Positions 19,316-38,060 of a stretch of DNA of 64,000 nucleotides are shown in pieces. The position numbers and the translations under genes are program-made. A model generated the notes under the pieces. The model did no database searches and was not told where the DNA came from. It saw nothing but the letters and a program-made list of their open reading frames with translations. This DNA is from Bryoerythrophyllum caledonicum (lineage: Eukaryota; Streptophyta; Bryopsida; Pottiales; Pottiaceae): contig OZ020520.1 of assembly GCA_963971425.1 (NCBI GenBank), positions 8,598,553 through 8,662,552 on the forward strand. Reading direction: 5' to 3'. Each line of letters starts with the position of its first letter. Position 1 is the stretch's first letter.

Positions 19316-19578
19316 CCATGACTATGGAGAAATATGGTTGTTGAAGTATCAATAAATACAGACATTTGTAGGTGCAAAGCATAAAAACAATGTATCAAGA
19401 ATACTGTATTTTTTACCATGGATGGACCAAAATAGCTTATTGTCCAAAAAAGTGGTAACGATAAAGGAAGCATATACTATTAATCCAAGCTTTATTCAAA
19501 ACTCCATGAAAAAAAGTCACACATAACACTCATTTACCTCGACGCAAATCACAATCGCCCTATTACTAATCAAACATT

Positions 19579-20433
19579 CTAGGGAGTCCCTCCATAAGCC
19601 TCTATACGCGTCTTCAAAAAAGCCCTCTGACGTTGCCGAGTCCATGTTGCACCATTCTCTTGCATTAATGGACTCTCAAGAAGACGCTGCAAACCCCGCC
19701 TTCGCACCTCGTCCGTGTTTGATTTGGGCAGCGAGTGACGGCGGGTGGGAGCAGAAGGAGAGCATGTGATTCCAGCAGCATATCTTGAGAGAATACGGGG
19801 GCGAAGACATTTACTAGATGGTTCTTGCACAATAGGCGCCACAAACAATCCAAACAAATACACTTTAGGTCGAATACACCTACACGACAACACAAAAAAA
19901 CTGTATCATCAAGATCCATCCTAGTGCACTTTAGCTCAAATGGAGCTAAAATGCAGAAGGTGAAATTCACAGAGCACATTTAATATCCAATGCACAAAAA
20001 CAAGCTCAAATGAAGCAAAACTACAAGAGTGCAAGGTACCTCAACAACAAACCAAGACTCTCTAGGCAAGAACGACTCAATAGTGCAATAACTTGGAGGT
20101 CAGCATAACACGCACCGTGAGCGAGTGGTGGTGAGTGGCATCCCTTAAATCGTCATAGAGAATACGCTTTGCTGGAATACAATTATCCAAGTTTAGGCGC
20201 GGAGACCCCGGAACTAAACGAGGCCACTGCGGCGAAGGTGAATTGTTCCTTTCATGAATTGGCTCCCGCGCAATAGGGCTTTCAACAACTCCGTCGTCCA
20301 CTGCCATGGTCGAATAATCCATGGTTGATTGCGCGGTGGCAGCAGAGTGCAACAAAAGCCCTTTACTCCGAAGGAAAAGGGCGAACTCATGTGGACCCAA
20401 CAAGGAATCCACGGACGCCCGACAATCACAGTC
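19579..20433 (-). CDS. Small gene of unknown function near the left end of the element (two exons)
   Basis: Exon 20433-20116 follows a good acceptor (TTTCTACAG) and encodes a segment containing ASVDSLLGPHEFALFLRSKG and a Ser/Pro-rich stretch, ending at a GTGCGT donor. The last exon (about 19879-19579) follows GTCGTGTAG. It encodes a basic, Arg-rich tail ending RIEAYGGTP. The phases of these two splice sites as I placed them do not agree, so an intermediate exon or a different donor is likely. The start codon is not certain. A palindrome (19926-19954) lies in the intron and another (20644-20672) upstream. It could also be a 3' extension of the larger gene, although that gene has its own stop at 20701. 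I recognise no domain. Confidence 0.45.
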
Positions 20434-20672
20434 CTGTAGAAATTTCAACAAAAGTGACACTCACATACCTCAGAACAATAGATAAAAATTCCAATCATTA
20501 AAAAAAGGACGACATTTCACCAGCAGTAGGTATCCAATCCGCACAATAAATTCGGTGGAGAAACATCACCATTTGTATTATCAAAAAATATATATAAAAC
20601 ACGGCCCAACAAAATTTACAAAATGGAGTTGCAGTCAAACGAAACACTTTAGCTCCATTCGACCTAAAGTGT
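19926..20672. repeat. Two variant palindromes around the small left-end gene
   Basis: 19926-19954 is GCACTTTAGCTC, five bases, GAGCTAAAATGC. 20644-20672 is ACACTTTAGCTC, five bases, GACCTAAAGTGT. Both keep the arms but have a different centre from the CTCGAGTCGAG class. A half-site lies at 19861-19875. Confidence 0.8.
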
Positions 20673-20700
20673 ATTAAGGATCTAAGCGCTTCCAACCACA

Positions 20701-21495
20701 TTAGGAACGGAGATTCTGATAGGCTTGAATTGCGTTACAAATACTCGCAGCCTGACCACACGTCTTCTGATCATTATAGAACATCTCCCGACCCGAGAAA
20801 TGTTCAGCACGATACTGCGCTAGGCCACCCGAAAATTGATGAAGGTCAGAGAGATATGGTAGCAATTCCTCCAGCAGTACAGAATCATGTCTCGCGCCAT
20901 CATGGTTGTGCGACCATGACGAAAGAAGAAGGACGTTCTCCGGCAAATTAAGGACATGCTTAATCGGGCTATCGTCAATGACAAGTGTATTTGACGGAGT
21001 ATACTCACAGCCCAACCTATTAAAGAGATGGTTCGATAACGTCTTCAAGAAGATGTCCTTCTGAGTGCCAAATTCCTTCATGTAGATTGTTATGTTACCG
21101 ACTCTACCCTCGGGAACCCTATCGCAACTCTCCTGACCAAAGATCCTGAGAGGATACGCAGAACTATGCTGAAAAAGATATTGACATATCTCACGTGTTG
21201 TAGATTCCATCATTGAACTCCAGATCGTGATGGTGGCAATCTTAGACAACTTCGTAAGGAATTCAGCACAACCAGGGCGCACTCGAACAAGCTTAGGGCC
21301 TACTTCGGCCGGCAGCGAGGCCGAGTGAATGGACCGGATAGAGCCCCTGGATCCCCTGGCCTGCCAGGATGGCTTACAAGTGCATAGAATCCCATTTAGG
21401 TCCAGCACAACATTCAACCATCTGCCCTCGGAATCTGAATAGATTCTAGGTAATTCTTCTAAATTGCTGGCACCACTTATTGATGCCTTGCAGAC
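20701..21495 (-). CDS. Gene A last exon: FCP1/NIF-like HAD phosphatase domain
   Basis: The exon follows the acceptor CCGAACTAG and ends in TAA at 20701. About 30 residues in, it contains VVLDLNGILC. This corresponds to HAD motif I, with D-x-N in place of the usual D-x-D. TIWSSMM fits motif II and LVIDDSP fits motif III. This layout matches the NLI-interacting-factor/FCP1 family, which dephosphorylates Ser/Thr, typically in the RNA polymerase II C-terminal domain. A D-x-N-G variant is, as I recall, usual in one plant subfamily, so the altered residue need not mean loss of activity. Here the domain is the C-terminus of a fusion protein. Phase agrees with the preceding exon (phase 0). Substrate cannot be inferred. 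Confidence 0.7.
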   Translation of the reverse strand, partial: VCKASISGASNLEELPRIYSDSEGRWLNVVLDLNGILCTCKPSWQARGSRGSIRSIHSASLPAEVGPKLVRVRPGCAEFLTKLSKIATITIWSSMMESTTREICQYLFQHSSAYPLRIFGQESCDRVPEGRVGNITIYMKEFGTQKDIFLKTLSNHLFNRLGCEYTPSNTLVIDDSPIKHVLNLPENVLLLSSWSHNHDGARHDSVLLEELLPYLSDLHQFSGGLAQYRAEHFSGREMFYNDQKTCGQAASICNAIQAYQNLRS

Positions 21496-21638
21496 CTAGT
21501 TCGGAAACGCCAGGAGAACGAAAAATATTACTAAAGATTCATTAACAACGACAAGTCAACATAATGTAGAACGAAAAGAGCAAACGGGGGGGAAGCAACA
21601 TGGAGAAGCGCAGAGTGTGGATAGTGTTAGAGGAGCAC

Positions 21639-21910
21639 CTCGAGAACTTCATCGTCTTGAAGCAATTCGTTTCGGACCCCCATCGATTCCAATGAAAGTT
21701 GGACGGTGTCAAGGGCCCTCGAGTGCTCCAGAACCATTTGGGGGCACGGTTCCGGGACAAAAAGAGCGGGCTCCTGGACAGGAGAATCACGATTGATCTC
21801 GTCTACGAGCACGGCCGAAGATTGGACGACATCCTCTACGATTGGGACTGCAGTTTGGACGACCTCATCTACGACTGGTTGAGCAATCGCGTCATCACCA
21901 AAACTAAGAT
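21639..21910 (-). CDS. Gene A acidic linker exon
   Basis: Acceptor TTTTTTCAG at 21911-21913 region; phase matches the phase-1 donor at 22118/22119. It encodes an acidic, Val-rich segment with the repeats QPVVDEVVQ, VPIVEDVVQ and VLVDEIN, then LLQDDEVLE. The donor (CTCGAG then GTGCTC) is weak. No enzymatic motif; it probably links the coiled-coil part to the phosphatase-like domain. The next intron (21496-21638) is the only gene A intron in the 22-27 kb block where I see no palindrome. Confidence 0.65.
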
Positions 21911-21992
21911 CTGAAAAAATTCAACAACTTCAACCCATCAGCTCATGCGCACATTGGACACTGATACAATGTCAGAGTCGTCACATGTCAAG

Positions 21993-22019
21993 CAGTTTAG
22001 CTCGAGTCGAGCTAAAGTG
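21993..22019. repeat. Palindrome in gene A intron (21911-22118)
   Basis: CAGTTTAGCTCGA, one base, TCGAGCTAAAGTG. One outer pair is mismatched (CAG against GTG). Confidence 0.9.
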
Positions 22020-22118
22020 ATCACTGAGCACTGTAATATTAACAAAAATACTGGAGCACAAAATTGGACATTTACAAAATGTTCTGGCTCTATACATTCG
22101 CAACTACGTTACACTAAC

Positions 22119-23082
22119 CTGACGATGAGCTGCGGACATCAACGACAGAATCATCCCGAGCCGGCGACTTCGGGGAGGAAGAGGGGCGGGTCGGCGGGGA
22201 CGGGGGATCAGGCAGCGATTGAGCCCCCATGGAGACGGGGGAGGAATCCGCCGGAGACGGCATAAGCGAACCGCGAGGCAGACTCCTAGTCTCATCGTCA
22301 CCTGAGATTGGAGGCTGAGGGATCGTAGAATTCACTACGGTTTGTGTCGTGGCGACAGGAGGCATAGTAGCCGTCATGAATCTCTGCATCATAAGCATCA
22401 TGTCGTTATGCCTCTGGTCCTGGTCCCTCTTCATCTCCTCGTCACGCCTCCGCTGCATATCCCTGAGCTCCTCGTCACGCTCCGCCAGCCGCTGCTCCAT
22501 CAACCTCATCCGGGTGGCCTCCTCTTCGAGCTTCTTCTCGAGGGCGATAAACCTGATGTCATCCTCAGCACTGCTCGCCGTTGCCAACGGTGAGCGGCCG
22601 GTCGCGCTGGCAACTTTCCTCTTCTTGGCTGCGGGGCGAGCGGATGACCCACCCAAGGTCGGAGCTGAATGAGGCCTCTCGGAGATATCAAGCGATTCGA
22701 ACTCCACAAAATCGAGTCGCTGCCGCGAGGTACCCATTGTCTCTCCCGCTTCAGACTGAGAGCCACTATGAAGCTCCGCCGGAGTGTTGGTATCGAAGTC
22801 ATCATGGGAATCGGCATCAGGTGTGACCGTATTGGTGCTCGGGCACACACCAATAGGGCTCGGGACCACATCCTCCTCCTCCTCCTCATCGACGAGATTG
22901 ATAATCACTTTCCCCTTTCCCTTGGCAACAGCCTCTCCAAGCTCGGGGAAGATCTCCAAGCTAATGTGATATGAACCAATAACGAAATCGGCCCGATCCA
23001 ATGTCAACGCTACATCCTGGGCGTCGTCCAGGTCCTGCTCATCGGTGTCGTGGGATATGCAGAATGCCTCCAGATCCAACAT
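22119..23082 (-). CDS. Gene A coiled-coil and low-complexity exon
   Basis: Acceptor TGTGCAG precedes ATGTTGGATCTGGAG; the phase-0 junction agrees with the previous exon. The exon encodes an acidic start (DTDEQDLDDAQDV), a Glu-rich stretch, a basic nuclear-signal-like AAKKRK, then a strongly predicted-looking coiled coil (EKKLEEEATRMRLMEQRLAE followed by RDEELRDMQRRRDEEMKRDQ) and a Ser/Pro-rich tail. It ends at a GTTAGT donor. Oligomerisation is a plausible role. The composition is unlike the retroelement ORFs around it. Confidence 0.75.
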
Positions 23083-23124
23083 CTGCACACTTTAGATCTG
23101 CACACCTATGGATTAAACAAGTCA

Positions 23125-23369
23125 CACTTTAGATCGATTCGAGCTAAAGTGAGCACAGAAGAACACTGATATGAAAACGTAGCCATTAAAACTTGGAAGA
23201 ATATGACGCGATTGACGACTGCTAAAAAACCATATAAGTATAAGCCGGCACTTTACCTCGACTCGAGCTAAAGTGCCACGCTACAAAGCATGAGAGACGA
23301 CCTCTCTGAAACAATACATTCACAGTCAGAGAGAGGGATCAACAGTTTAGCTCGAGTCGAGCTAAACTG
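23125..23369. repeat. Three palindromes in gene A intron (23083-23382)
   Basis: Located at 23125-23151, 23247-23277 (GGCAC...GTGCC outer arms) and 23343-23369 (CAGTTTAG...CTAAACTG). The last starts only 13 bp inside the donor. All three are within a 300-bp intron flanked by canonical GT and AG. Confidence 0.9.
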
Positions 23370-23382
23370 CAAAGATACTCAC

Positions 23383-24726
23383 CACACTCGCAGTCAGTAA
23401 TTTCGTCCCGCAAAACAGCTGGACAGTAGAATCCCCTTTCTTGCAGAACAGCTCCAGAACCTTGATGAAGAACTCCATTCTCAGCTTGTTCATGTTCATG
23501 GAGTACGCCAGCTCGTTGTACTTGCGTAGCTTGGTGTGCAACACATGCTCCGGAGCTGCGTAGATCTTCTTCACGGCCGGAATCTGCGTAAGCTCTTTCT
23601 TAAAGAGAAAGAGGAGGCGAACCGGGTCGAGAGCGTTATTGGTCTTCGGCGCGAATCCCCCCAAGCGCTTGTTGTCGGAGGGAAGATACTTCGACTGCAG
23701 GACGTCGTACGCATGGCACAACGACGGGCCCTCAGCAAACGCTGTCACTTGAAGGTGTGACTGCTCGTCGCCGCAAATGAAGAGCCACGATGGAAGACCG
23801 GTGAGAGAAGGCTGCCCTTTCGATGCGAACATTGTCATGAACTCGTCGAAGAAGGGCTTCTCCAATGACGACGTCGCCTTCCCTGCGAACCCAGGGATAT
23901 TATGGAAGTCGATGATGCCGAGCTTCACGTTGCAGCCCAAGTTACGCCACGCATCCGAGGGCCATCCACCGAGCGAGTTGGTTGCCGCCTTGTATGGACG
24001 AAAGTGCAAGGCCCCCACAGGTGCAACGAACCGCGCCCGCACATCGAGGAAGACTCTGAAGAACTCCTTCGCATACGGAGAGAGATCTTCACATCTGTAG
24101 TTGCGAAACTGCGTCTGCCTCGAGTTTGCGTAGTACGAATCGGGTGGACCCCAATCCAAGAGGGCACGCTTTGAGGCCTTGCTGACGTTGTAGTCCTTCT
24201 TGAACTTTTGCCAGTTGGAACGACTGTACGCCCTAGTGCTGTTGAAGAAGGCGAGCTCCGGCCTGATCAACTGAAGCTCCATCCGAGCGACCTCCTTCCT
24301 CTTCCTTCGATCGACCCAGTCCCGGGCGCTGTAGCAATCCTCCAGCACTGATTGCGGCTGCTTTACAACCACCTTTGGATAAGGTAGTTTTCGCGATGGC
24401 CTTGATCGATTAAGAATATGCTTACACAGCGTTGCGTTATCAGCCTCGGTCATATTGCCGAAAAATTTAAAGAACTCGCGTGTCAATACCCCATCTTTCT
24501 CAAGCACCCAGGACTTGGCGTCCTTAAACTTCGACAAGGGCGACGTTGTTGAATCCACGTTGATGAGGTCGCCTTGTGCCGCCGAAGAGATGACATCCGA
24601 CCAGAGCTTGAAGGTCTCATCAGACGAGGTGATAATCTTCACCTCGTTCGTAATCGAGAGCTCCTTCGCCTTTCCGGCTTTCTTGAGCGCTGCCTGGCTT
24701 TTGGCGACGTCAATCATTGCGAAGCG
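23383..24726 (-). CDS. Gene A large exon: possible degenerate DNA methyltransferase region
   Basis: About 448 residues from an acceptor at CGTGAG (24727) to a GTGAGT donor (23382); both junctions are phase 0. A central motif LLDWGPPDSYY recalls the DPPY-type motif IV of N6-adenine/N4-cytosine methyltransferases. It is followed by FFRVFLDVRARFVAPVGAL, similar in layout to the strand after motif IV. Together with the ParB-like segment in the preceding exon this resembles ParB-methyltransferase fusions known from phages and some eukaryotic mobile elements. The catalytic motif is not canonical and I see no clear SAM-binding FxGxG, so the assignment is tentative. It could equally be an uncharacterised plant domain. 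Part of this exon is repeated at 1-121. Confidence 0.6.
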
Positions 24727-24831
24727 CTCACGAACCGCGTTTAGAAATGGTTGTGCAGAACATTGGCAGTGTTGATTTAGCGTACAACCACAGAGGGAAA
24801 AAATCCAAACCAGCAGGAACCAAAAATGCAG

Positions 24832-24950
24832 GTTAACTCGAGTCGAGCTAACTTGGAACCGGAGAGTGTACACTCTAAGTGCTTGAATCTATATTCAGAA
24901 CTATACGAAGAAGGACAAGCACAGAAGTTACCTCGAGTCGAGCTAAAGTG
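24832..24950. repeat. Two palindromes in gene A intron (24727-24975)
   Basis: At 24832-24852 (GTTAACTCGAG form) and about 24928-24950 (TTACCTCGAG/CGAGCTAAAGTG form), within a 249-bp intron. Confidence 0.88.
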
Positions 24951-24975
24951 CATGACCTTGGTTAAGATTAATTAC

Positions 24976-25863
24976 CTCAAACTTCTTGTCATTGACAATC
25001 TCCACTGCCGTTCTCCGACCTGATCTATGGGACCCGTGAATGCCTACGGCGGAGTGCTTCGGCATCGGTCTTCCAGCTTGGATCCACAACGCGCGAGAGC
25101 CAAGGATATTTGTTGCCCACGTCGGCTTGAATTGGACCAAGTGATTTACGCGATTATAATACGCAGAAATCTTCCTCAGCTTCTCAGGGTCCTCCGTCCA
25201 GACAATGTAACACTGCCATGTTCGGAAGTGCCTTCTCATAACCTCCGGCACAATACCGTTTATCATCGACTTTGATGCAGCAACGCTGTGCTGGCCGTTG
25301 ATGATATAGAAGTCGCAGTTGCTGAGCTCCTCAACCTTCGTTGGCATATGATCGAGCTTGGGCATGACGCAGAGAGTCTGCTTCCACGTCTTGTCCGGCA
25401 TTTCGAAGTAGTAATGCTTCAACTCCTCCATACCGCGAGGTTCGAATGCACGGATCATCCACTCCGGCGGTGCATTATGCAGCCTCATCACATCAAGCTC
25501 GATCTTCATCTCTCTGTCTCCTTGGAAGAAACAGCTCTGACACTCCGTCCAGAATTTCTGATATATCTGTTGGACGTTGGTGTAGTCTGTTACCTCTCCG
25601 AACCCGAGCGTCGAAGGGAGTTCCAACAGTGCAGAGGCCATCGAATTGGCCAACTCTTCCTCTGAAACGAGTTTCGTCTTCTTCCTGGAAGAAGTCTCCA
25701 GCTTCTTGGCAGCTGAGCGCTTCTTGACGGGAGACGCTGACAGCGTGTTGCGCAGGGTGCTTCGACTTGCTCTTGCACCTAGAGTTCTTACCGGTACCGA
25801 TGCTTGACTTATATTCTGGCTACTGTTACGGCACCAGAAACTACCAAAAGTTCTATTGGGCGC
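24976..25863 (-). CDS. Gene A ParB/sulfiredoxin-like exon
   Basis: The frame is open from about 25863, after a TCTAG acceptor-like site, to a GTAATT donor (24975). It starts with a basic Ser-rich segment (SASPVKKRSAAKKLE). The core contains FYIINGQHSVAASKS, which resembles the G-x-[RQ]-R/H motif of the ParB/Srx fold (compare DGQHR). Just after it comes a W-rich segment with CYIVWTEDPEKLRKISAYYN. In bacterial ParB this fold binds CTP and acts at palindromic parS sites; in other families it is a nuclease or accessory to a methyltransferase. Which applies here is unknown. The exon has no internal stop. Confidence 0.65.
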
Positions 25864-26009
25864 CTAGACGCGATTAATTTCGCCTTCTCAAGAGCGGCAA
25901 AAGTACTCATTCTGGAAAGAATGACGCGGAGTTTGTTTGCTACAGCCTTTGCTTTCAGCGGCTGACCACTACTAGTCTCCCATTTCTTTTGGGAGATTTC
26001 CTGGTCGAC

Positions 26010-26421
26010 CTGAGCCACTATGTCATCAAATTGTCACCCCCTCAGAGAACTGACTAAGTCGAAGATACAGAAGGGAGACGAAGTATTGTTCACTACAATA
26101 GTGAACATATAAGGATCGACAGACTCAGTGGTTGTCTCACACGACAACTTCACTATATCGTTATCTTCGTGGACTACATCAATGATTTTGGTCTTGAAGT
26201 CGATGTGCTGGGGTTCATGGATATCACCAGCGAAGGTCTGACCAAACACTAGATTCTCAGTGTAGGGGGCCCACAGCAGCGTCCACTTCAGTGTCATCGA
26301 AGGACACTTGAGCTCCCAGCAATCTAAGTGGTTGTTGTCGTCTCCATCGTCATCATCAATGTCGACAGGCTTTGGCTGGAAGAAGTGCTGCAGCTGAGAC
26401 ACCATCCTGTCCCTCTCAGAT
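26010..26421 (-). CDS. Gene A N-terminal exon, with an in-frame TGA
   Basis: Acceptor GTTTGTGCAG (26422-26424 region). Joined to the start exon in phase 2 it gives a short basic start, then LQHFFQPKPVDIDDDDGDD and CWELKCPSMTLKW. This resembles an N-terminal domain of unknown function. A TGA at 26034-26036 interrupts the frame, yet the same frame continues sensibly (QFDDIVAQVDQEIS). Either this is a CGA-to-TGA nonsense change, or my junction with the ParB-like exon (about 25863) is wrong and the stop is intronic. The frame stays open to 25809 (KAKAVANKLRVILSRMSTF), so the exon may be longer than listed. Confidence 0.55.
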
Positions 26422-26596
26422 CTGCACAAACACAAAACGGAGCACAAATATTAGATTGTTTTAATAATCATCCGATTAGGACGGCGAGGTCACACATTGG
26501 CTCGACTCGAGCTAATGTGTAACTAAATACAAGTATGTAAATAATGCTCTGCAAGAAAATCTAGTCAATTTGACCGTTCGCTTAGACGCTTACAAT

Positions 26597-26759
26597 CAAC
26601 TCATGCCTGCTTCTCGTTCAACTCTCAGAACTGTGAAAGAGCTTCAGGTCACGCTCAAATCACTCACGAACCTCACTCTTTGAGGTTCTCAAGTGGTTGA
26701 AGCGGGACTGAAGCTCTTGCACGATTTATGAGAGGTGAACAAAAAGTAGACGTGAGTTG
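26597..26759. other. Long foldback hairpin 1, possible small-RNA precursor
   Basis: The first ~80 bases are largely complementary to the last ~80, with a short CTCTT loop near 26678. The best-paired part is AAGAGCTTCAG against CTGAAGCTCTT, and GAACCTCA against TGAGGTTC. A related copy lies at 26921-27082. The size and mismatch pattern resemble plant MIRNA foldbacks, but a small foldback transposon is equally possible. Either strand could be transcribed; it lies in intron 1 of gene A. Confidence 0.7.
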
Positions 26760-26920
26760 AGTTAGGAGACTGCAATTACACCAATGTATCAATGTTGTAT
26801 TCAAGTTTTAGCTTCATCTTTAGCTCGACTCGAGCTAAAGTGCTCATGCATGGATTGCATAGCTGAACAGTTCTGACACTTACAATATTCATTCAAACGA
26901 ATTTCCTATACATGTATTTT

Positions 26921-27082
26921 CAAATCATGGCTACTTCTCGTTTAACTCTCAGAACTGCGAAAGAGCTTCAGTTCACCCTTAAATCACTCACGAACCTCAC
27001 TCTTTGAGGTCCTCAAGTGGTTGAAGCATGACTGAAGTTCTTGCACACATGTGAGAATTTAACGAGAAGTGGACATGAGTTG
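26921..27082. other. Long foldback hairpin 2, related to hairpin 1
   Basis: Same layout as 26597-26759: ACTTCTCGTTTAACTCTCAG pairs with the complement of the segment ending near 27075, and GAAAGAGCTTCAG pairs with CTGAAGTTCTTGC. The two hairpins are direct repeats of each other with scattered differences, so the unit was duplicated after it arose. Confidence 0.7.
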
Positions 27083-27366
27083 GGTCGTCGATATCATTGG
27101 TTTACTATACCTTTGGAGTGTTTAAAGTCCGAGTGTTGTTGTGTTTGAGTTGTTTAAGTTTATTGTCATACACTTTAGCTCAATTCGAGGTAAAGTGTGC
27201 TGGCTTTACTGGAAGGCCATGACATTTTTCAGACCGAGAGTTTGAAAGTAGTCATTATGATTACTGTTCCTGTAGCCAGCTTTGGCGCAACCATAGACGT
27301 ATTAAGTCGAACATTTCTGTTCGACTCAAGCTTTAGAGGGCCTCCATTGTGCACTATTGATCACAC

Positions 27367-27648
27367 TTTAGCTCGAGTCGAGCTAAAGTGCCCTCTCCAG
27401 TGTGCTTCATTGGCCATAGTTTACCTCGAGTCGAGTTTAAATGTAGCCTAAAGAGCACTGGAGAGCGCACTTTATCTCGAGTCGAGGTTAATGCAGCCAC
27501 AAGACCACACGGGGGATCCCACTTTAGCTCGAGTCGAGCTAAAGTGTGGCCCATTTTGCACAGTGGAAGCCCACTTTAGCCCGAGTCGAGCTAAAGTGTG
27601 GACAGTAGTGCAATATCGATGTCCCAGTTTAGCTCGACTCGAGCTAAA
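27367..27648. repeat. Phased palindrome array 1 (six units, 51-53 bp spacing)
   Basis: Six palindromes have cores centred at 27377, 27430, 27481, 27533, 27585 and 27638, giving spacings of 53, 51, 52, 52 and 53 bp. Consensus is CACTTTAGCTCGA, one base, then the complement. The second and third units have diverged arms (TTTACCTC/GAGTTTAA, TTTATCTC/GAGGTTAA). The whole array lies in intron 1 of gene A, about 110 bp from the start exon. Confidence 0.92.
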
Positions 27649-27757
27649 CTGTGTTCATTGAAGAGCTTATTTATTGCAGTTTGTGCAGATCCGTCTTTCG
27701 TCATATGATATTGAAGGCGTAGGGTTTAGGGCTCCTGGGTGAGAGCATGGATTTTAC

Positions 27758-27815
27758 CTTTCAGCCATTGATTATGAACCTGAATCCCAGACAATTTCTG
27801 CTGGAACTAGAAGTC
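27758..27815 (-). CDS. Gene A start exon
   Basis: Acceptor TTGTTGCAG is followed by 47 bases and then ATGGCTGAAAG directly before the donor GTAAAATC (27757). The ATG at 27768 spliced to 26421 gives a continuous frame (MAERSERDRMVSQ), which is why I choose this start. The 1,336-bp intron that follows (26422-27757) carries nine palindromes and two long hairpins. Confidence 0.7.
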
Positions 27816-28235
27816 CTGCAACAACAATAACAAACCCACACACACAAAATCAAACAAAGTAGCACATGGAAACCAACACATTGAAATCATTCACAATGAA
27901 ATCAGCACTTTCAAATGAGCACATTGAAATTAACACATTGAATTCAGCACATTGAATTTAGCAATTGAAACCACGACATTGAATTCAATGTGCACATCTA
28001 AACTAGCACAAACCAGCACATTTAAACTAGCACAAACCACGACAAATAACCACAAACCACCACAAACCACCACATTCAAACTACCACATTCAAACCACCA
28101 CATTGAATACACAATCTCATCTACCTTCTCACACATACATCAAAAGCAATGCTATCATATTGTTTCAATACATCATATCTAAAGCAAAACTACACAAATA
28201 TCAAAAGAAATGCAAGACTGAATGAGTGCAGTTAC

Positions 28236-28300
28236 CTTTAAAACTATGAAATCCGACTGAAAAAGCTGCAAGTCTTGTTCCTTCTTCACGTCAATCCTCC
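28236..28300 (-). other. Probable 5' untranslated exon of gene A
   Basis: A strong donor (TTTTAAAG then GTAACT, at 28235) lies upstream of the start exon, with the acceptor at 27816-27818. The intron between (27816-28235) is rich in CA/GA simple repeats. The transcription start is not defined; no clear TATA box is seen. Confidence 0.4.
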
Positions 28301-28480: not shown

Positions 28481-29550
28481 GCTGCAGTGGACACAAACTC
28501 ACACAATTAAGAATCACACGTCCTACAAACCCTATCTGCAGGAAACCCTAACGTCCACGAAAGCCTAAACGCACGAAAGCCTAAACGCAGGAGTACAATA
28601 TACACAAACTTAACAGACCCTGAACATTACGAAACCAACACAAACCGCAAACTCGCCTCAGAAAACAACAACACCTAGACAAACACACACAAAACCACGA
28701 CGAACCGACGCATAAACGCACAACCCTCACAAAACAAGAACGTACACGGACACACACAAAACTCACAGCAACAAAAAGGAAGAGAAAATGCGAGCGCCAG
28801 GAGTTTCTAGGGTACCTTCGGGGGCACCTAGAGCCGTGAGGGTCGAAACCCTGTGGCCGTGTGGTGCTCCCGAGATACCCTCGGGATACCCTTCGTGATA
28901 TTCGGGTGAGACCCTCGGATATTTTAGATGGATGCACCACAAATTATTCACCTTCATTATTGATACCCAGAGTTTCAAGAAGCCATTTTAATCTTTCTAA
29001 TGTAAGTTCTAGATATTACGCGCGTGTTGTATTTCTGTACTCGTAAATTTCCTACGCAATTTTTCTTGGCCATTAACACTACAATTTTGCATATTCTGGG
29101 GCAACGAACGGATAGCAAAAGAAATGTGATTATTTCCAATTTCATTCGTATGATCTCAATTAAAACTTCTAAATTGGCATTTTCTCAATAATACACAAAC
29201 TTGGATTGGACGGAAGTGAACGATTATAGTGTTTACTGTTACAAATAGGATTATAGTGTTTAGTTTTCTGTCATGCTTTCAGTGGATCAGCTGGCTTTCA
29301 CTTGACTGGATTTCAATTTCTGCATTACAGAAGGAGTAAATTCATTACCATCGATGTATATAAGTTCCTCCTACACCAATTATTAGGTGAAGCACACTTA
29401 AGAGAGTTTTAAAGCTACGATTTTAAGATTCTATTACTTTGAATTCACGTTTTGATTATTTATGAGTTTGATATTATATACTTTGAGAATCGAACTGACA
29501 TTAAGTATGTTAAGACCACATCTTGCAATTGTATAATTATAAAATAAATG
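28481..29550. other. Intergenic region upstream of gene A
   Basis: It starts CA-rich (28481-28790). A GC-rich patch at 28800-28930 has repeated 'accctcgg/gataccc' words with inverted arrangement. An AT-rich stretch follows. No gene or RNA is recognised. It may contain the gene A promoter. Confidence 0.4.
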
Positions 29551-29555
29551 TCGGT

Positions 29556-29655
29556 GCACACTTTAGCTCTATTGGAGCTAAAGTGTGCATATTTTCTTTT
29601 TAGTTTCCTACAATTCCTGATGGTGCACATTTTAGCTCTAATAGAGCTAAAGTGT
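29556..29655. repeat. Two intergenic palindromes (variant centre)
   Basis: 29556-29588 has GCACACTTTAGCTC, then TATTG, then GAGCTAAAGTGTGC, a perfect outer stem. 29624-29655 has GCACATTTTAGCTCTA and its near complement. They are about 68 bp apart and share a T-rich spacer, like the units at 32312-32415 and 37871-37995. Confidence 0.88.
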
Positions 29656-29717
29656 GAATTTTTTCTTTACTTTTCACTTCATTTTGCTTTTACTTTAACG
29701 GTACAAATCCAGTAGTT

Positions 29718-30106
29718 AGAGCATCTCCACCCCTGACGGGGAATTTTCCACGCCAGCGGGAAGGTGCCCAAGTTTGAGATGAAGGGAGGGGGGTTTACCC
29801 TTTTCCCCCCGCACCGTCCCCGAATTGGCCACTGTGAGGGAACGCCAGCGCCCAACACTTACGCCATAGTAGGCTAATTTGTTTTGGGGTTTTTATTGAT
29901 TTTTTTTAATTCCCTCGTGTAATTACATGATTGAACACATGCTCCCGGGGAATTTTAGTCTCCCCTGTACTTTTTGTAAATTTATTGTTTAGAAGAACCG
30001 GCGCCGCCACTCAGGTGGGCCGATACACCGGCCTAGGCCTCAGGGAGTGGGCTTTACCGTGTTTATTCTTGCATCCCGGTCCTTCGGCCCCGGTGGAGAT
30101 TCTCTA
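29718..30106. mobile_element. MITE-like insertion with inverted ends
   Basis: The left end reads TAGAGCATCTCCACCCC and the right end, complemented, TAGAGAATCTCCACCGG. The interior is GC-rich, unlike the surrounding AT-rich DNA. 'GAGCATCTCCA' starts are common among plant MITEs. I could not settle the TSD, so the superfamily is open. Confidence 0.5.
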
Positions 30107-30118
30107 TTTCTAGTACAC

Positions 30119-30780
30119 TACTAGCAATTGGCGCTTGCGTTGCAAGGCATTAGTTCAACCATTTTCATGTAGTTTTTAAATCACAAAATATTAAAAAGAG
30201 AAAGGTAACAACAATCTACATAAAATAAAAATATATCTTTGAAACCTATGCATGACTTTTAATAATGTAATAGAATAGAATAGAAAAAAATTAATTACGT
30301 TTTAGATTTTTTTGCATTTTAACATGGAATTTCAAAAAGGTTATGAACGTCAAATTTGTAATTAAGAGTTTCAAATTTATTTTGGGTAAGCACAAATTGC
30401 AACACACAAATGCAAATTTCACACACCCACAAACTCAACTTGCAATTATAATCTCAATTTTATACACCCACAAACTCAATTTGCAATTACAATCTCAAAA
30501 CTTGCAATCTCACCTCAAAACTTGTAATTTCAATCTCCACAACTCGAATATGCAATTTTGCAACTCCAACTTTGTATGCCAACCTCCAAGATCACAACTC
30601 CAACTTCATTGCGTGGTTTTATATTACAAACTATATTAAAGAAAAGGTAACATGATTCACTGTGCGGTTGGCTGCACCGTTCCTAGCAATTGGCGCTTGC
30701 TTTGCAACGCATATGTCCAACCATTATAATGTAGTTTTTATAATACAAACTATAAATAATAAAAAGGTAACATGGTTCAC
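30119..30780. repeat. Direct repeat pair beginning CTAGCAATTGGCGCTTGC
   Basis: About 90-100 bp from 30119 recurs from 30681 with scattered differences. On the minus strand each starts with a small hairpin (CTTGC...GCAAG), then ~9 bases, then CTAG, which recalls a Helitron 3' end. Between them, 30400-30600 holds repeats of 'acaaactcaacttgcaatt'. Confidence 0.5.
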
Positions 30781-31515
30781 TGCACGGTTGACTACGCAAT
30801 TAACTGCGCGTTTGACTGCACTGTTTATGTAGTTCACCGCACGGTTGACTACGTGGTTCACTGCGTGGATTATGATTTTAGTAGTATGATTAGTCAACAA
30901 GTTGGCAACTAGTTTTAGCCACCATTGTCATGAATATTATCCCTCATTTGTTCACCTACTACAGTTCATTTTGTAATAGCCCTCTATCAAAACTCTTCCC
31001 TAGCACACAATTTTGATACTTGATAAAATGTATAAGCTCAATATGTTATACCTGCCGAACGCCATGCATTTATTCTTCGTCTCATCTTCAACCTCAATTT
31101 CTTATCGTCTTATCCACAACTATTCTCATTCCCATCTCTTGCATTTTTTAAATATTTTTTAATATTATCCAAATGCATATTTAATGTGTAATCATATAAT
31201 TAGCCAATAACTAATGACTTTGTAATGATTTTTTATAGGATACTTCATGTATATTTGTATATCTAAAACTTCTATGCACAATTAAAGAATATTTAAATTT
31301 TACTTAATGAATGTTTGAAGTTTTAAAAGTATATTTTAGGATAGTTTAATTAATATTTGTATATTTAATGATTATTTATAGAGTATTTAATGCACTGTTA
31401 ATGAATAGATAATGAATAGTGCATAAATTTCTAATGTAAAATTAATGTGTAGTTGAATATTCAATAAGTATTTAATGAATATTTACTGAATATGTAATGC
31501 ACATTGAATGCATAA

Positions 31516-31753
31516 AACACCATATTCATTATATTGGGAGATTGGGAGCCTCCCAAAATAATATTTGAAGCTTGAGAATGACCTAAATATGCAAATATTT
31601 AGTAAATTTGCACAATGCAATTTGTCCAATATCTACAATATGGGTACATATTCAGCTTGAGTCGAGCTGAATGTGCACCAAAAAAATGTATTGGAAAAAC
31701 CGTTCAGAACTTTCAAAATCCTGGAAATCTCCCAATAAAATGAGTATGGTGTT
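31516..31753. mobile_element. 238-bp non-autonomous relative of the large element (TSD ATAA)
   Basis: It begins AACACCATATTCATTATATT and its right end, complemented, begins AACACCATACTCATTTTATT. Both continue GGGAGATT. ATAA flanks both sides (31512-31515, 31754-31757). Its only other structured feature is one palindrome (31647-31675: TTCAGCTTGAGTCGAGCTGAA). It therefore has the termini, the TSD length and the palindrome of the large element but no gene. It is probably mobilised by the large element's transposase. Confidence 0.9.
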
Positions 31754-31759
31754 ATAATA

Positions 31760-33760
31760 TGTGATGGATATCCAATGAGTATTTTACTTGTATTTCTATA
31801 TTTATTGTATGTTTAAGTTTTTTCCTTTTCCAATATTCCTTTCTTTTCTCATTTTCGTTTCCAGAAGAATGTTCTTATATTTCCAATCTTCTACTTGCAG
31901 TTTCATTTTCCCTCCATATTTTACATTCTACTTTGTCCAATTTTTGATATTTTTCGTTTGCTCCATACCTACGTCTGATTATTCCCAAGCTCTTTCTTGC
32001 AAATTCTTGCTTTTCTACATGCACTCAACCCTTCCTTACTATGATGCTCAAGATGTTATCAAACCATGATTATGGTTTCCTAAACTAATTGTCCACAAGT
32101 AAAAAACTTTATGTTCCACTATTTACTAGGATTGACATTTAAAGTAGTAGTTGACATTGGGTGATGTATAGTTTTGACACTACACTTATTGTTCATTTTA
32201 CAATTACTGTATGGATTCCTAATTAGTGTCGACTTCTCTAGAAGCCATCTTCTGTATACTGGAGCTACATAGTGCATTTTTGCTTTCTAATCTACTCCAT
32301 TTAGTGATGGTGCACAATTTAGTGCTAGTAGAGCTAAACTGTGCATATTTTCTTTTTAGTTCACTGCACCCAGTGATGAGGCACACGTTAGCGCTACTGG
32401 AGCTAAAGTGTGTGCACACACTCCTTTTGGTTCATTGCACAAAGTGATGGTGAAGACCTTTGCTAGAAATCGAGCTGATGTATGTGCAATGTGTATATCC
32501 ACTTCTACAAACAATCATTTTGAACTCCGTACTTCTCTTTATGGTTAAGTATTTCACAAGTGAAATAGTAATCTTTTGAATTTTAAAAGGGTTTTCAAAA
32601 TATGTGGATCTAAATCTCCAATAGTAATATTAAAAAGCAAAAAAATATGACGATCCCCTAGTCTTTAGTGAATATGAAGTCTAAGTATTCTTGGTACCCT
32701 AAATCAATAATATGTGACAATGTGTGAAAATGTACGAATTGGGATGTAATCTTATTTTTCACTAGAAGAATAACATGTTTATCCACAATATCATTCGTTC
32801 TAATATTACTTCTATGTATTCAAAATATCACATTCCATACTGAGTCATAGCAAAACGTTTTTCAGGTTGCTCGACGTGCCGGCAATCGAGAAGTTTCTCT
32901 TTTGGCTCACATAACTTTTATTGAAGACGTTCATTGAGAAAATATAATTATGCCTCATGACTTTTATCATCCTTCTACAAAATTTTGAGAATTTCAAAAA
33001 TAATTTGCAACCACTAGAACGTGCTCAAAAACTAATTATTCCATTTTTGCATGTATCAATAAATTCAAAATTACTTACATTACGAACATTAAATTATGCC
33101 TGATGCACTAAGTGATACACTTTGTATTAGTTATATTTTATATTTTGATTATTCTTTTTTTGTCATGAGGAGGTCTCTCCGTTCCTTGTTGAAATCTTTT
33201 AATATTGTTCCACTCTCTCTGTGTTACAAATGACAAAGTCTTTAATTTCAAGTCAAAACATGAAATAAATTGTGTATGGTCAAGAATTCTTCCATCTTTC
33301 ATGTCATGCTTAGACTGCCACACCCTAAACTCATGATAATGCAATGCGAACTCAAATATAAGATATTTTAATTCAAAATATTAGTAACCAATTTCAATTC
33401 CAAATCCAGACCATGGAGACACTTGGGATTCTTGCCAAAGAATGCACATTCTAGATTGATGACAAAATAGTAACATGATGCACATTTTTAAAACCCCAAA
33501 GAAATGATGTCCAAAGCATGTTTGAATACATTAATTTTTGCTAAAAATACACGTACACATAAAATATGTTTTTTTTAAAAATGCTATTTGTTTGTTAAGG
33601 TCTTTGATTTCAACATAATAGATAAGTCCTATTTGGATTGTAATACAAATTATTTCTAATAATCTCAATATCTTCTCGACATTTCCCTATACCTTAGTTG
33701 AATTGTCAATATATTGAATGTTCAAAGTATTATTATATTGAAATGAAATGACATCAGAAG
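31760..33760. other. AT-rich intergenic DNA
   Basis: No credible gene. It contains two variant palindromes in a ~70-bp tandem unit (32312-32415; see separate entry). The rest shows nothing I can name. Confidence 0.5.
32312..32415. repeat. Two palindromes in a ~70-bp tandem unit
   Basis: 32312-32344 (GCACAATTTAGTGC...GAGCTAAACTGTGC) and 32381-32415 (GCACACGTTAGCGC...GAGCTAAAGTGTGTGC). Each is preceded by 'agtgatg(g/a)' and followed by 'ttttcttttTAGTTCA.TGCACC'. A third degenerate unit follows near 32450. Confidence 0.8.
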
Positions 33761-33768
33761 ATAACACC

Positions 33769-33900
33769 TAAACCAAGGACCCTAAACCCTGAACCCTAAA
33801 ACCTGAACTTAAATACCAAACCCTAAACCCTAAATCCCAAAATCCTAACCCTAAACCCTAAATCTAACCCTAACCCAAACCCTGAGCGTTACCCTGAAAC
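33769..33900. repeat. Degenerate telomere-like tract (CCCTAAA variants)
   Basis: About a dozen CCCTAAA or CCCTGAA words, as in 'ccctaaaccctaaatccc', imperfectly arranged. It lies inside the element about 180 bp before the presumed 5' exon of the transposase-like gene. Interstitial plant telomere repeats and promoter telo-boxes look like this. Confidence 0.8.
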
Positions 33901-34080
33901 CTTGTATATAACTCGCATGTGCGAGTATATTCGAGGTATGTACTCTTCCTTATTTTAGTCAGCCAGGAAATAGTTGATTCTGTTTCCCGCTAAGATTTCG
34001 AATTTGCACCTTTTTAGGGGCTGTGGATACGCCCCCCCGCCAATTCTGAAGTTTCCTCCCGCCAATTCTAAAACGGTCGT

Positions 34081-34283
34081 GTGTCCGTGAGTGACCTCGC
34101 CGATCCTCGAAAACTTTCTTCATTTCTTTCCTTTCTCACTTTGGTTGCTGTGCAAGGTTGTTGTGGAGAGGCTTGGAGGGAGAAGAACTGTCGGAGGTTG
34201 AGGAGGGTAACATCTACAGGTTACGCACGGTTGAGCAGGGCGCTTGCGCGAGGCAACAACGCACCAGTTGTCTTCTTCATAAG
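34081..34283 (+). other. Possible 5' untranslated exon of the transposase-like gene
   Basis: A stretch with higher GC, no ATG, ends at CTTCATAAG before GTACAC, a usable donor. Upstream are two copies of CCGCCAATTCT (near 34038-34068), which could be promoter elements. A spliced transcript to 35112 would skip all the palindromes between 34521 and 35012. Splicing is not proven. Confidence 0.4.
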
Positions 34284-34520
34284 GTACACAATGTGTACTT
34301 CTTGCATTCTCTGTGCACAGTCTCTAGCAATTAGGATGTGACAGTGTGTAGGGTTATTTGCGGTGGTTCCAGTTGCTACTGTGATTTTGAAGCATCACTG
34401 CGAGTTTCGTGACGACTAACGGGAAGATTTGGGTTGTAGTACACAGAGAGTCAGATTCATATGCTGAAGAGTTTTACCATATGAATCCCTAAAAGGACGC
34501 CGAAAATCACGGAAGGACAG

Positions 34521-34822
34521 TTTAGCTCGAGTCGAGCTAAACTGTCTTACAATATTGTATTGACATTTTAGCTCGAGTCGAGCTAAACTGTCATACCTTC
34601 TTTCCTAGTACAATTTAGCTCGACTCGAGCTAAACTGTCGATAAATATTATTATCGATAGTTTAGCTCGAGTCGAGCTAAATTGTCTTACCTTCTTTTGA
34701 AGGAAAGTTTAGCTCGACTCGAGCTAAACTGACATACCTGATGTCCTATTTCTGTTTAACTCGACTCGAGTTAAAATAACAATGAGTCTGATAGTCATAA
34801 ATTTAGGTCGGGTCGGGCTTAG
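34521..34822. repeat. Phased palindrome array 2 (seven units, 46-47 bp spacing)
   Basis: Cores are centred at 34531, 34577, 34624, 34671, 34718, 34765 and 34812, giving spacings of 46, 47, 47, 47, 47 and 47 bp. The first five have TTTAGCTCGA arms. The sixth has TTTAACTCGA on one side and TCGAGTTAAA on the other. The seventh is degraded. Several spacers are themselves inverted repeats. The array lies in the presumed first intron of the transposase-like gene. Confidence 0.93.
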
Positions 34823-34908
34823 TTGTCTTTGTCAAGGGTGAAATAATTTCATATTCGGCTTATAGCTAATTGCATGAAATTTTATACTTGTCATCTTATA
34901 CCGCATGA

Positions 34909-35012
34909 GTTTACCTCGAGTCGAGCTAAATTTACATGGTCTGCCATGTCAGCTCACTTGAATCATACTTTTTTTTTCAAGCGCCAGACCTTACCTCGAT
35001 TCGAGATCAATT
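34909..35012. repeat. Two diverged palindromes downstream of array 2
   Basis: 34909-34933 (TTTACCTCGAG/CGAGCTAAA) and 34990-35012 (TTACCTCGATTCGAGATCAA). They fall out of the 47-bp phase. Confidence 0.7.
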
Positions 35013-35111
35013 ACCCTCCTCCTATGCTTCTTCATAAATGTCTATTCCTACAAGGCGTTTACCCATTTTTATTTGTCAGGGTTTTTTATTATGTATCTCA
35101 TTGGAATGCAG

Positions 35112-37554
35112 GATATCGTCTTCGGAGGGCAACGATGTTCATGTTGACGCTCTCGTGAATCCAGACCTTCCAGAGTTTGATGTTATTCCTCGCCGTCTCT
35201 GGGTCGGGCTGACTGTTTTGCTTCACAATGGTTCGGGTGTTCGCGTTGCGGAGGGGTTGGTTCGCAATGTCCGGTCCAGTGCACTTCTAGGTTCCTCTGG
35301 TCCTCTTGGGGATTCGAATGTTGTAGTACAGGTGTCCAGTACTTTTGTTTTAGACGAAGCTCCTGATGAGTGGAGATACTCGTTTAAGACCTGGCCTATT
35401 CAACAAGTCTTCTTAAACGGTGTGAGTCTCTTCCATCATTGCCTTCGAGACATTTACAATGTCTCGTTGGTTGAGCGTAACAGACCTCTAGGTGGGAGCT
35501 CCCGTTCGTACGACAATTCCTCAAGGAATACACGTCCAACAGTGTCCAGGAATGCTGAATTTCTCATGACCCCTTTTTCCATTAACGCTGTTGCGAGCAA
35601 TAGTTGTTGCAGTCAAAATTGTGTTCAACACTACCCTAGAGATAAAATAAGAGTCCTTCGGACGCGCTTGTACAGTGAGACCATCGTGCAGTTCAAAAAT
35701 CATATCAAACTCGACGTTCACAGACAGTTTCATAGAGACGCTGCGGGTAGGAAGGTTGTGACCCTAGAGGGTGTGGACGTTTGTGCCCATGCTTGGATGA
35801 AAATCATGGGTGTAAGTTCGAGTACTTTCTATCGGAATGCGAAGGACGCTGCCGCTGGTCATGCCGCTCAACACCACGGGAATACCGGTTTGCGTAAGCC
35901 TAGAGGTCATACGGTTGTGGCTACTGCCGCTCTTGGAGCCATTCTCGATAGACATGCGGACCACATGCCTCATAAGTCTCGTGTTCTCCCATCTGGGGAG
36001 AAGGCTGTGGCAAAGGTCCTCCCTGCAAGTTTTAAGTGGAAGGATCAGATACCGCTTCTTGATGATCATCTCGCTGATTGTGGATTGCCGCCAATCTCAA
36101 CCTCAAGCTTGAGTAAGATTCGGCGTGTGAGCTTCCCTGAGTACTATGCCAAGAAAGGTGGAGACAACTTTGCCCGTTGTTCTACTTGTGACAAATACCA
36201 GGATCAGAAGAAGCTTACTCAACCTGGAACACAAGCATCACTGCTATGGCAAAAGAAGATGCAGGTTCACATTGATTCTGCTTTCTCACATCGGGACTTG
36301 TACTACCTGAACCAATTTCGATCAAAGTCGTCGCCCCAGGAGGTTCTTACCATCATGCATGATAAGATGGATCACTCAAAGACCGCCTCCCCGGTTTTTT
36401 CACATAAAACAAAGCACTTAGATGGGCTTATGAAGTTGCCTCTTGCAATCACAGGTATGCTTGCCCATGGTCATGTGGACCAGCGTTACGCCCATTACGG
36501 CCTTGATTTATACTCCCATGATGCCAATTACAGGGTCGGGTCGTTCGCAAAACTATTGCGTGACTTGGAGGCGCCTCCGAAGTCATCGTCCCGGCAACTC
36601 TTTCCAGAATCTAGTTCTCATCCATTGTATGCGGCGGTATTACGGGGTGCGGAGATGTGTTTGGATCCATTAGGGCCGATTCCAGATATCCTAGTTCCAG
36701 GGAGGCCTTTGCCACCAATACTGAATGTACAAATGGACAATGCAGTTGGTGATAACAAAAATAGATTTGTTTTCTGTTTTTGGTCTCTCCTTGTTGCCAA
36801 ACACATTTTCCGCGAGGTGTATGTTAATTTTATGCTAGTTGGTCATACACATGATGATATAGATGCATTATTTGGACGTTGGAGTATGACACTGAGGAAG
36901 GAGAGTTTTCCAACCATTCCTTTGCTCATGAGGTCGTTTATGAAAAATGAGAGTGTTCCCACAATCCCGCATCTCATCCAAGAGGTTCCTGACTTTAAGA
37001 AGTTCATTGGGGGTAAGATTGCGGACGGTGATGAAGCTTTGGAGGGTCATACAAAGGCTCATCAGTTCAAGTTTTATGTGGATTCAAGTGGTTGTGAGGA
37101 GTACCGTGAAGATGAGCATTTTGTTGGCCAGAGACGCGATCGTCCACCTCCTTCTTTTAGAGTTGGTCGTGATCTTTTTGCTGGCTATTTTGTTGCATTG
37201 CGTCCTTGTGATGGGGACGAGCGCCCATATTGGATTGCTCAAGCAGTTTCAGATCCTAATTCTAACCCGGATATGCCAAACACCGTGCGTATCCAATTCT
37301 TCCGCCCTATATCGCGCGATCGGGATGTTATGAAGTTCTACAAAGATTGGGATACTGATACCAACCTTCGTTGGACAATTGAAAAGGGGATAGCCATAAC
37401 GTGGGAGAGTACCAATTCAATCTTGACAGCATGGAAACCTAGGTCTTCAAAGAGGGATGGAGGTCATGTGCAAGATTCAACTACAAAAATTCCGAAGGGG
37501 CAAGTAGCAATTATCAAGGCCTCCTTGGAAGCACTTGCTAGCTCCGAATCGTAA
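35112..37554 (+). CDS. DUF7869-type transposase-like protein
   Basis: The frame is open from at least 35038 to TAA at 37554. I prefer an exon start at 35112, after the acceptor TGGAATGCAG; an unspliced start at ATG 35038 (838 residues) is possible. By that numbering, a Cys-rich CCSQNC motif lies near residue 190. A helix-turn-helix-like VCAHAWMKIMGVSSSTFYR is near 248, and a second pair, CSTC, near 380. A nuclease-like core contains IMHDKMDHS (~439), VQMDNAVGDNKN (~561) and MLVGHTHDDIDALFG (~600). These acidic blocks match the layout of DUF7869 proteins, considered DDE-like. A C-terminal domain of about 150 residues follows. It is the only intact transposase candidate in the element and has no internal stop. 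The catalytic triad is inferred, not shown. Confidence 0.8.
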
Positions 37555-37870
37555 TAGGCTTAGATAAATGGATTTCCTTTTCCTAGATTTTAGATTCTAA
37601 TGCGTAATACTTCATGTAGTATGGTTAGATCCATTGGTGCTGGGATTATAGATATTTGTATTTCATTAATTTACACTCTGTATGACTATAATATGTGATG
37701 CCAATGATTGCTATGAAATATTCTCTCCATTCTTTTTGTGTATCGGTGATAATTTGCAGTATGTTTTATTTTCTTTTTATAATAACAATGTGGTAAATTG
37801 CTTCTAGTCTTGAAACCAATAATACCAGTAATTGCCTTCATGGTGAATGATAGAAAGTAAATGTTGGGTC

Positions 37871-38060
37871 GCACTTTAGCTCTAGTGGAGCTAAAGTGTG
37901 AGCAAATCTTCTTATTGACACTTTAGCTCTCCATTCTTTTTAGTTCAGTGTACTTAGTAATGGTGCGCACTTTAGGTCAAGTGGAGCTAAAGTGTGTGGA
38001 GTTTCCTTTTTGAGTTCATTGCACCTCTAAGTGATGGGGACACTTTAGTTCGAAAAGAGG
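37871..38060. repeat. Palindromes in ~95-bp tandem units downstream of the transposase-like gene
   Basis: 37871-37899 (GCACTTTAGCTC, TAGTG, GAGCTAAAGTG) and 37967-37995 (CGCACTTTAGGTC...GAGCTAAAGTG) are clear. 37920-37932 and 38040-38060 are half or decayed sites, and a half-site lies at 38486-38499. They share 'agtgatgg(t)gcaca' and T-rich spacers with 29556-29655 and 32312-32415. They may act in the 3' region or as subterminal sites. Confidence 0.8.

Follow-up and report, generated by a model that had tools for sequence, protein, structure and literature searches.

Palindromes in the noncoding DNA of a moss DUF7869 transposon as putative element-specific binding sites

Why would a transposon carry some thirty palindromes and keep them out of its coding exons? 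This question is raised by a 64,000-nucleotide stretch of the Bryoerythrophyllum caledonicum genome (GCA_963971425.1, contig OZ020520.1; C8:8598553-8662552), hereafter called the window, in which an earlier note made from the letters alone had reported such repeats. They lie in a 19.3-kb DNA transposon at 19287-38563, recognised by perfect 24-bp terminal inverted repeats (TIRs), AACACCATATTCGTTATATTGGGA, at 19287-19310 (+) and 38540-38563 (-), and by the 4-bp target duplication ATCT (19283-19286 and 38564-38567); no strand is assigned to the element or to the palindromes. Its two genes are divergent, with a DUF7869 transposase-like gene on the plus strand and a second gene, here gene A, on the minus strand. 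As far as sequence comparison goes, the palindromes are selected, element-specific cis sites, because they are confined to the element, exon-free, conserved among its copies, kept in a relative (L001) and symmetrically changed in a sister subfamily.

Sites were scored with a loose pattern, TTTAGCTC-5 bases-GAGCTAAA, with mismatches counted over 16 arm positions. At up to 0, 1, 2 and 3 mismatches the window holds 15, 23, 28 and 33 sites, with 15, 23, 27 and 32 of these inside 19286-38564. The confinement of about thirty palindromes to the element was thus upheld (32/33 at up to three mismatches); the stricter statement that none lies outside it holds at up to one mismatch (23/23 inside) and fails at two, where a single site appears at 45957, the only outside site at up to three. 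At four mismatches the counts are 37 inside and 5 outside, which is near background, while exact 8-base half-sites number 43 in the window, all 43 inside the element. First-order Markov simulations of the element (100 runs) produced no sites with up to two mismatches, 12 with three and 82 with four. The chance expectation at up to three mismatches is therefore 0.12 per element against 32 observed, and a chance origin was rejected. Coding exons make up 7667 of 19279 bp and hold none of the 32 sites (binomial P 9e-8), as had been claimed; at four mismatches they hold 1 of 37 (26308). Exon limits were taken from homology and from splice sites read by eye, and for exon 21627-21920 from the open frame only.

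The sites fall into two arrays and a scatter of intronic and intergenic positions. Upstream of the transposase gene, seven palindromes occupy 34521-34930 (34521, 34567, 34614, 34661, 34708, 34755 and 34910), the first six 46-47 bp apart; the earlier count of about nine there is reached only by including two at four mismatches. Another seven occupy 27174-27648 in the gene A 5' region (27174, 27367, 27420, 27471, 27523, 27575 and 27628), the last six 51-53 bp apart, and two more lie at 26496 and 26819 (26496-26839). Together these are the nine in the reported per-intron series of 9, 2, 3 and 1, which we reproduced, the nine corresponding to the gene A 5' region at 26496-27648. The others are two in the intron 24975-24739 (24832-24947; 24832 and 24927), three in the intron 23379-23083 (23128-23366; 23128, 23252 and 23346) and one in the intron 22116-21921 (21996-22016). 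The remaining sites had all been called intergenic. Two pairs, each 69 bp apart and with non-CpG centres, are so placed (29562 and 29631 in 29562-29651; 32318 and 32387 in 32318-32407), and three sites lie downstream of the transposase gene (37875, 37971 and 38229 in 37875-38249). Of the other three sites, 20648-20668 is between the phosphatase exon of gene A and its exon 20451-20077, 19930-19950 (non-CpG centre) is downstream of the latter, and 31651-31671 belongs to a nested miniature inverted-repeat transposable element (MITE). Arms are 8-15 bases long. Sites near genes have the centre CGA-S-TCG (S = G or C), and intergenic and 3' sites mostly lack CpGs. The ends of the element are poor in sites; at up to three mismatches, the outermost are 643 bp in from the left end and 314 bp in from the right.

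Conservation was assessed among four copies, that of the window (W) and three from contig C1 (K1, K2 and K3), which were chosen by site clusters and are partly incomplete. Coding DNA holds no site in any of them (0/32 in W and 0/34, 0/32 and 0/26 in K1, K2 and K3, where low-similarity exon ends were trimmed by hand). Both arrays are present in 4/4 copies, mostly at 51-54-bp spacing before gene A and at 46-47-bp spacing before the transposase gene (up to four mismatches). Outside the arrays, with the centre base excluded, cores are 92-95% identical (357/380 for W-K1, 277/300 for W-K3 and 286/300 for K1-K3), whereas noncoding DNA 7-40 bp from the cores is 77-83% identical (932/1124, 634/821 and 623/814, respectively; Fisher p 1.5e-8, 1.4e-9 and 3.6e-15, which are guides only because positions within copies are not independent). 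The contrast is larger within the arrays, where the cores are 92-95% and the adjacent noncoding DNA 64-72% identical. More distant noncoding DNA, at 85-88%, lies below the cores and above the near flanks. K1 and K2 are nearly identical, and K2 adds little. Sites were picked in the W copy, so that comparisons with W are biased and K1-K3 is less affected.

These comparisons bear on the simplest alternative, that the palindromes have no function and reflect tandem-repeat drift, slippage duplication and spread with the element. The arrays are indeed tandem repeats with 47- and 52-bp periods. Yet the palindromes are more conserved than the spacers between them, isolated intronic and intergenic sites are conserved too, and palindromes are kept in L001 despite unalignable flanks. 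Neutral repeat drift was rejected because cores are more conserved than their surroundings across copies, and a complete absence of function appears very improbable. The palindromes were also considered as marks of nested micro-insertions. This was not upheld, the only nested element holding one being the MITE.

The centre base itself varies. It is the same in 13/19 comparisons between W and K1 outside the arrays and in 7/12 within them, and so differs in about a third or more; at nine sites with CpG-class centres that differ between W and K1, 8/9 are G against C (by eye). Such variation would be accounted for if the palindrome were inverted by way of a hairpin, or if G or C were required at the centre.

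L001 (CADCWO010000071.1) is a 4327-bp contig in a cyanobacterial assembly and encodes a DUF7869 protein 77% identical to that of the window over the best segment. It has six sites at up to three mismatches, none of them in its 2832 coding bases (P 0.0017), and 500 simulations of L001 gave seven such sites in total. The exact 27-mer CAGTTTAGCTCGACTCGAGCTAAACTG is retained, and L001 shares with the window a CAG..CTG variant of the flanks ahead of the transposase gene. When L001 noncoding DNA was compared with the element (blastn, E up to 1), matches were confined to the palindromes and the short spacers between them; one further L001 noncoding match (E 0.23) falls outside the element. In the whole assembly from which L001 comes, the loose pattern (up to one mismatch) occurs at three places, all on the L001 contig (control 0). 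We infer that L001 is moss DNA. Moss-like transposon DNA was seen in two assemblies filed as cyanobacteria, L001 (Synechococcales MAG81) and P0233 (Leptolyngbya MAG94), and is likely contamination.

We scanned the moss genome (437 Mb, 894 contigs) for the exact core palindrome TTTAGCTCGANTCGAGCTAAA, which occurs 3707 times; the pattern read backwards does not occur. The distinct exact sites listed are 61 of the 3707, all on contig C1. Another site lies within 20 kb for 58 of these 61, compared with a mean of 9.7 and a maximum of 24 in 2000 random draws, and their spacings resemble those of the element. Nineteen arbitrary 10-kb stretches contained four sites at up to three mismatches, of which three sit in the terminal part of a sister element. 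A generic genomic repeat was therefore rejected. The genome check that the earlier note had proposed, for enrichment in element copies and depletion in exons, gave clustering among the listed sites and no exonic site in four copies; the similar genome-wide density that it had named as contrary evidence was not seen in the arbitrary stretches. Its view that the palindromes serve the element agrees with this clustering, with the empty exons and with cores conserved beyond adjacent noncoding DNA. An A or T centre is found in 145 of the 3707 exact sites, at least 50 of them on C1 (65 Mb, ~15% of the genome), where older copies may accumulate. In viral contigs, the strict palindrome, the TIR and relatives of the transposase and gene A profiles gave no match, and the loose TTTAGCTC-5-GAGCTAAA pattern occurred in 14 contigs at one site each, which we treated as background.

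The listed sites also bear on whether the palindromes draw a host transcription factor and are mere enhancers. Arrays stand before both genes and intronic sites can be enhancers, as that account would have it. Against it, the sites accompany the element family in the parts of the genome examined (where 61 of the 3707 sites were listed), and the change of motif in the sister subfamily is easier to understand with an element-encoded binder. We consider a host factor improbable.

The sister subfamily is marked by a doubly changed palindrome, TTCAGCTCGANTCGAGCTGAA (TTCAGC..GCTGAA), with 674 exact copies in the genome (control 0), some of them clustered at 45-, 52- and 104-bp spacings like the element arrays. 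One degenerate 30-kb region of this type, first met in an arbitrary 10-kb stretch, contains transposase fragments (segments >100 amino acids) that are 71-78% identical to P0010 and 60-74% identical to P0001, the latter being a transposase type close to that of the window. This sequence evidence suggests two subfamilies, each with a transposase of its own; their palindromes are set apart by matching changes in the two arms.

The changed palindrome also occurs in MITEs. Visual pairing of the first 100 TIR places gave 16 short elements, 163 or 237 bp long, whose TIRs are nearly the same and which have no room for genes. A palindrome of the form TTCAGCTC-5-GAGCTGAA is inside 16/16, ten of them exact for TTCAGCTCGANTCGAGCTGAA and six with 0-1 arm mismatch. 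Eight were fetched (those six and two of the exact ten), and 8/8 have one site, both 12-bp ends exact and identical 4-bp flanks. The nested element in the window (31516-31753, 238 bp) has one TTCAGC..GCTGAA-type palindrome with one arm mismatch and a duplication of ATAA (31512-31515 and 31754-31757); its relatives are MITEs by their short length, TIRs, duplication and lack of genes (8/8 fetched). Of the other full-length end pairs, 2/3 have a 4-bp duplication; the remaining pair lacks one and may be mispaired. Exact copies of the TIR AACACCATATTCGTTATATTGGGA number 647 + 678 in the genome (reversed control 0).

The presence of a sister-type palindrome between the TIRs of all 16 MITE pairs would be expected if the sites served transposition, with the transposase or an accessory protein, such as TnpA of Spm, binding them to build a transposition complex or to autoregulate promoters. 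The arrays directly before both genes are compatible with this. However, the sites are not concentrated at the element ends, most being in promoter regions and introns, and the MITEs may have arisen by deletion from an end that by chance held a site. We think a transposition role unlikely, though it is the strongest of the alternatives to anti-silencing.

The dyad symmetry itself could have another origin. Across the 32 sites, left and right halves match beyond shuffled halves (377 symmetric positions vs 344.8, sd 4.7; 0/20000 shuffles as high), most sites are in introns or 5' regions and the sister motif is altered on both arms, all of which would suit RNA hairpins acting in transcripts on splicing, stability or small-RNA production. 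But pair-breaking single-arm changes are common in the core, the symmetry excess comes partly from related array sites and two flank classes, many sites are intergenic, and a dimer-binding site equally accounts for symmetry. A role in RNA is hardly likely in our estimation. As an observation apart, the sites at 34755, 26496, 24832 and 31651 carry the same change relative to the consensus on both arms, which could reflect hairpin-templated correction.

We infer protein binding, with gene A as binder and an anti-silencing effect. Dyad symmetry, arms of 8-15 bases and regular spacing suggest a DNA-binding protein that acts as a dimer, and since the motif follows the family and is altered in the sister subfamily, the putative binder is most likely encoded by the element. 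Gene A is the better candidate, as it accompanies the transposase and, like VANC21, has introns that carry the motif. A homodimer, most likely the gene A product, would bind the palindromes at the two arrays (~52 bp spacing before gene A and 47 bp before the transposase gene) and at the intronic and intergenic sites. Once bound, it would keep the noncoding DNA of the element open against host silencing, and both genes would then be expressed and copies and MITEs mobilised. Such VANC-like anti-silencing by a gene A-type homodimer on an unrelated transposon is the mechanism that we place first, a reading that we find about as easy to believe as to doubt.

Gene A (20077-26417, minus strand) has about six exons, defined by homology, by splice sites read by eye and by a match to the FCP1/NIF phosphatase (NIF E 4.2e-18). 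They lie at 26417-24976 (broken by an in-frame stop and a frame break near 25810), 24738-23380, 23082-22117, 21920-21627, 21495-20704 (the phosphatase exon) and 20451-20077. Its main part has 22 homologues, 12 of them with the phosphatase domain and 1291-1587 amino acids long, and the nearest named ones come from two mosses, Ceratodon purpureus and Physcomitrium patens. In its own genome, the exon 24738-23383 scored at least 93 loci. The transposase-like gene (35113-37551, plus strand) was assigned by its DUF7869 domain (PF25273; Pfam E 9.5e-40, 136.7 bits against a curated cut-off of 26), by 105 homologues, the nearest named again from C. purpureus and P. patens, and by alignment, which shows that an internal stretch present in relatives is missing from the window copy. 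At least 53 transposase loci were scored in the genome, and among the loci listed a gene A row lies within 30 kb of at least 38/53 transposase rows, on the opposite strand in 38/38, at a median distance of 11.9 kb. In Ceratodon, one homologue of each gene carries the neighbouring locus tags KC19_3G000200 and KC19_3G000300.

Several observations weigh against anti-silencing by gene A or blur the general picture. Searches of gene A against Pfam, NCBIfam, PHROGs and PDB sequences gave only the phosphatase at E<0.001 and no recognised DNA-binding domain. Twenty-six of the 61 listed C1 sites have no exact TIR within 20 kb, including the K3 cluster, which is an element copy by its proteins. A different role is possible for the non-CpG sites at 29-32 kb and 37.9 kb. 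A single degenerate region, with its fragments divided between the two strands, is what ties TTCAGC-type sites to a diverged transposase, and palindrome type and TIR type are imperfectly linked: two CATT-type TIRs enclose three TTTAGC-type sites (4698049-4698255), another TTTAGC-type site (6239834) is inside a TTCAGC-type cluster, and the palindrome of MITE L052 has one arm of each type. Finally, the MITEs, which lack genes, have kept a site, and this suits a transposition role as well as anti-silencing in cis.

How does the system compare with known ones? The VANA protein of VANDAL elements is a MULE-type transposase, and a VANDAL/VANC system is further marked by a protein that binds the motif and removes methylation. 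Here, the only Pfam match of the transposase at E up to 1 is DUF7869, and the element differs from VANDALs further in its 24-bp TIRs and 4-bp duplications. Gene A has no Pfam match at E<0.001 beyond the phosphatase (gene A exons and 12 homologues searched, and not compared directly with any VANC sequence). According to its description, VANC21 binds a short motif in introns and in intergenic and terminal noncoding regions; the motif forms tandem repeats upstream of VANA21 as well as in introns of VANB21 and of VANC21 itself, and VANC6 targets carry different motifs (PMC5735166). The moss palindromes resemble the VANC targets of Arabidopsis VANDAL21 and VANDAL6 in being element-specific noncoding motifs, exon-free, often tandem and subfamily-specific, and the moss element is likewise multi-gene, with a non-transposase gene having motif-bearing introns; the motif differs, being a 21-27-bp palindrome rather than YAGTATTAY or AGTTGTMC (Hosaka et al. 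2017, PMC5735166; Sasaki et al. 2023, PMC10398659). In the moss, the parallel is seen in exon-depleted noncoding motifs, in arrays of 47- and 52-bp period and in a motif that goes with the subfamily (3707 TTTAGC-type and 674 TTCAGC-type sites), with exceptions.

In Spm/CACTA elements, the element protein TnpA acts on repeated short motifs and is also a regulator. The moss palindromes are similar as repeated short motifs that are putative sites of an element protein. Spm motifs are subterminal, whereas the ends of the moss element are poor in sites; CACTA/Spm elements have CACTA TIRs and a 3-bp duplication, which differ from the TIR AACACCATATTC and 4-bp duplication found here. ParB-parS also uses palindromic sites for a dimer. 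Apart from the palindromes, the likeness lies in a conserved FYIINGQHSVAASK segment of gene A, which we take to be reminiscent of ParB/sulfiredoxin-like folds; a C-terminal segment looks like the last motifs of amino-methyltransferases, minus the catalytic DPPY. Both were read by eye, without profile support, and are leads only. No ParB-named family was matched at E up to 1 in Pfam, PHROGs or NCBIfam (most PHROGs matches being unnamed, at E 0.028 or worse), and one gene A segment compared with phages by tblastn gave nothing informative. The 163- and 237-bp elements are like MITEs of DNA transposons in their nearly identical TIRs, 4-bp duplications and lack of genes, and unlike MITEs generally in that 16/16 paired ones keep an internal palindrome.

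With somewhat more doubt than confidence, we suggest that this group of moss DUF7869 transposons may have evolved its own sequence-specific anti-silencing, independently of VANDALs, in which a large gene A protein (the two segments above together with an FCP1-type phosphatase) would act on palindrome arrays that co-diverge with the subfamily. We found no description of such a moss element in the literature searched (titles and abstract starts, with most subscription journals uncovered), no account of such an anti-silencing system for bryophyte transposons by title and abstract start, and no paper naming DUF7869 in the literature searched. If the proposal is true, sequence-specific transposon anti-silencing would not be peculiar to one Arabidopsis lineage and would have been reached at least twice in land plants, with unrelated transposases and a different protein and site architecture converging on it. 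A defined 21-bp site and its cognate protein would then offer a means of opening chromatin at selected places. Because a single moss genome contains two subfamilies whose sites differ, target specificity can be tested directly, and homologues of both genes occur in Physcomitrium, a moss suited to laboratory work.

Some further features of the locus were recorded. The element is inserted in Ty3/gypsy-like pol coding sequence (the gypsy reading by eye). The window copy is damaged in both genes, gene A by its stop and frame break and the transposase by its missing stretch. Between the two genes, CCCTAAA telomere-like repeats occupy 33767-33883. The CpG ratio is 0.85 in the element against 0.73 and 0.75 in its flanks; either low methylation or youth would fit, and the ratio was given no weight as evidence. 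DUF7869 proteins share conserved HDKMD, DN..GDNKN and VGHTH.D motifs (window 35038-37554) that could form an acidic catalytic site. Equal-sized contigs (3976, 224779 and 559682) appear in the homologue lists of both the transposase and gene A, which merely suggests co-location. Twelve of the 16 Ceratodon gene A homologues listed have U or V chromosome locus tags, and the gene A family seems abundant on moss sex chromosomes.

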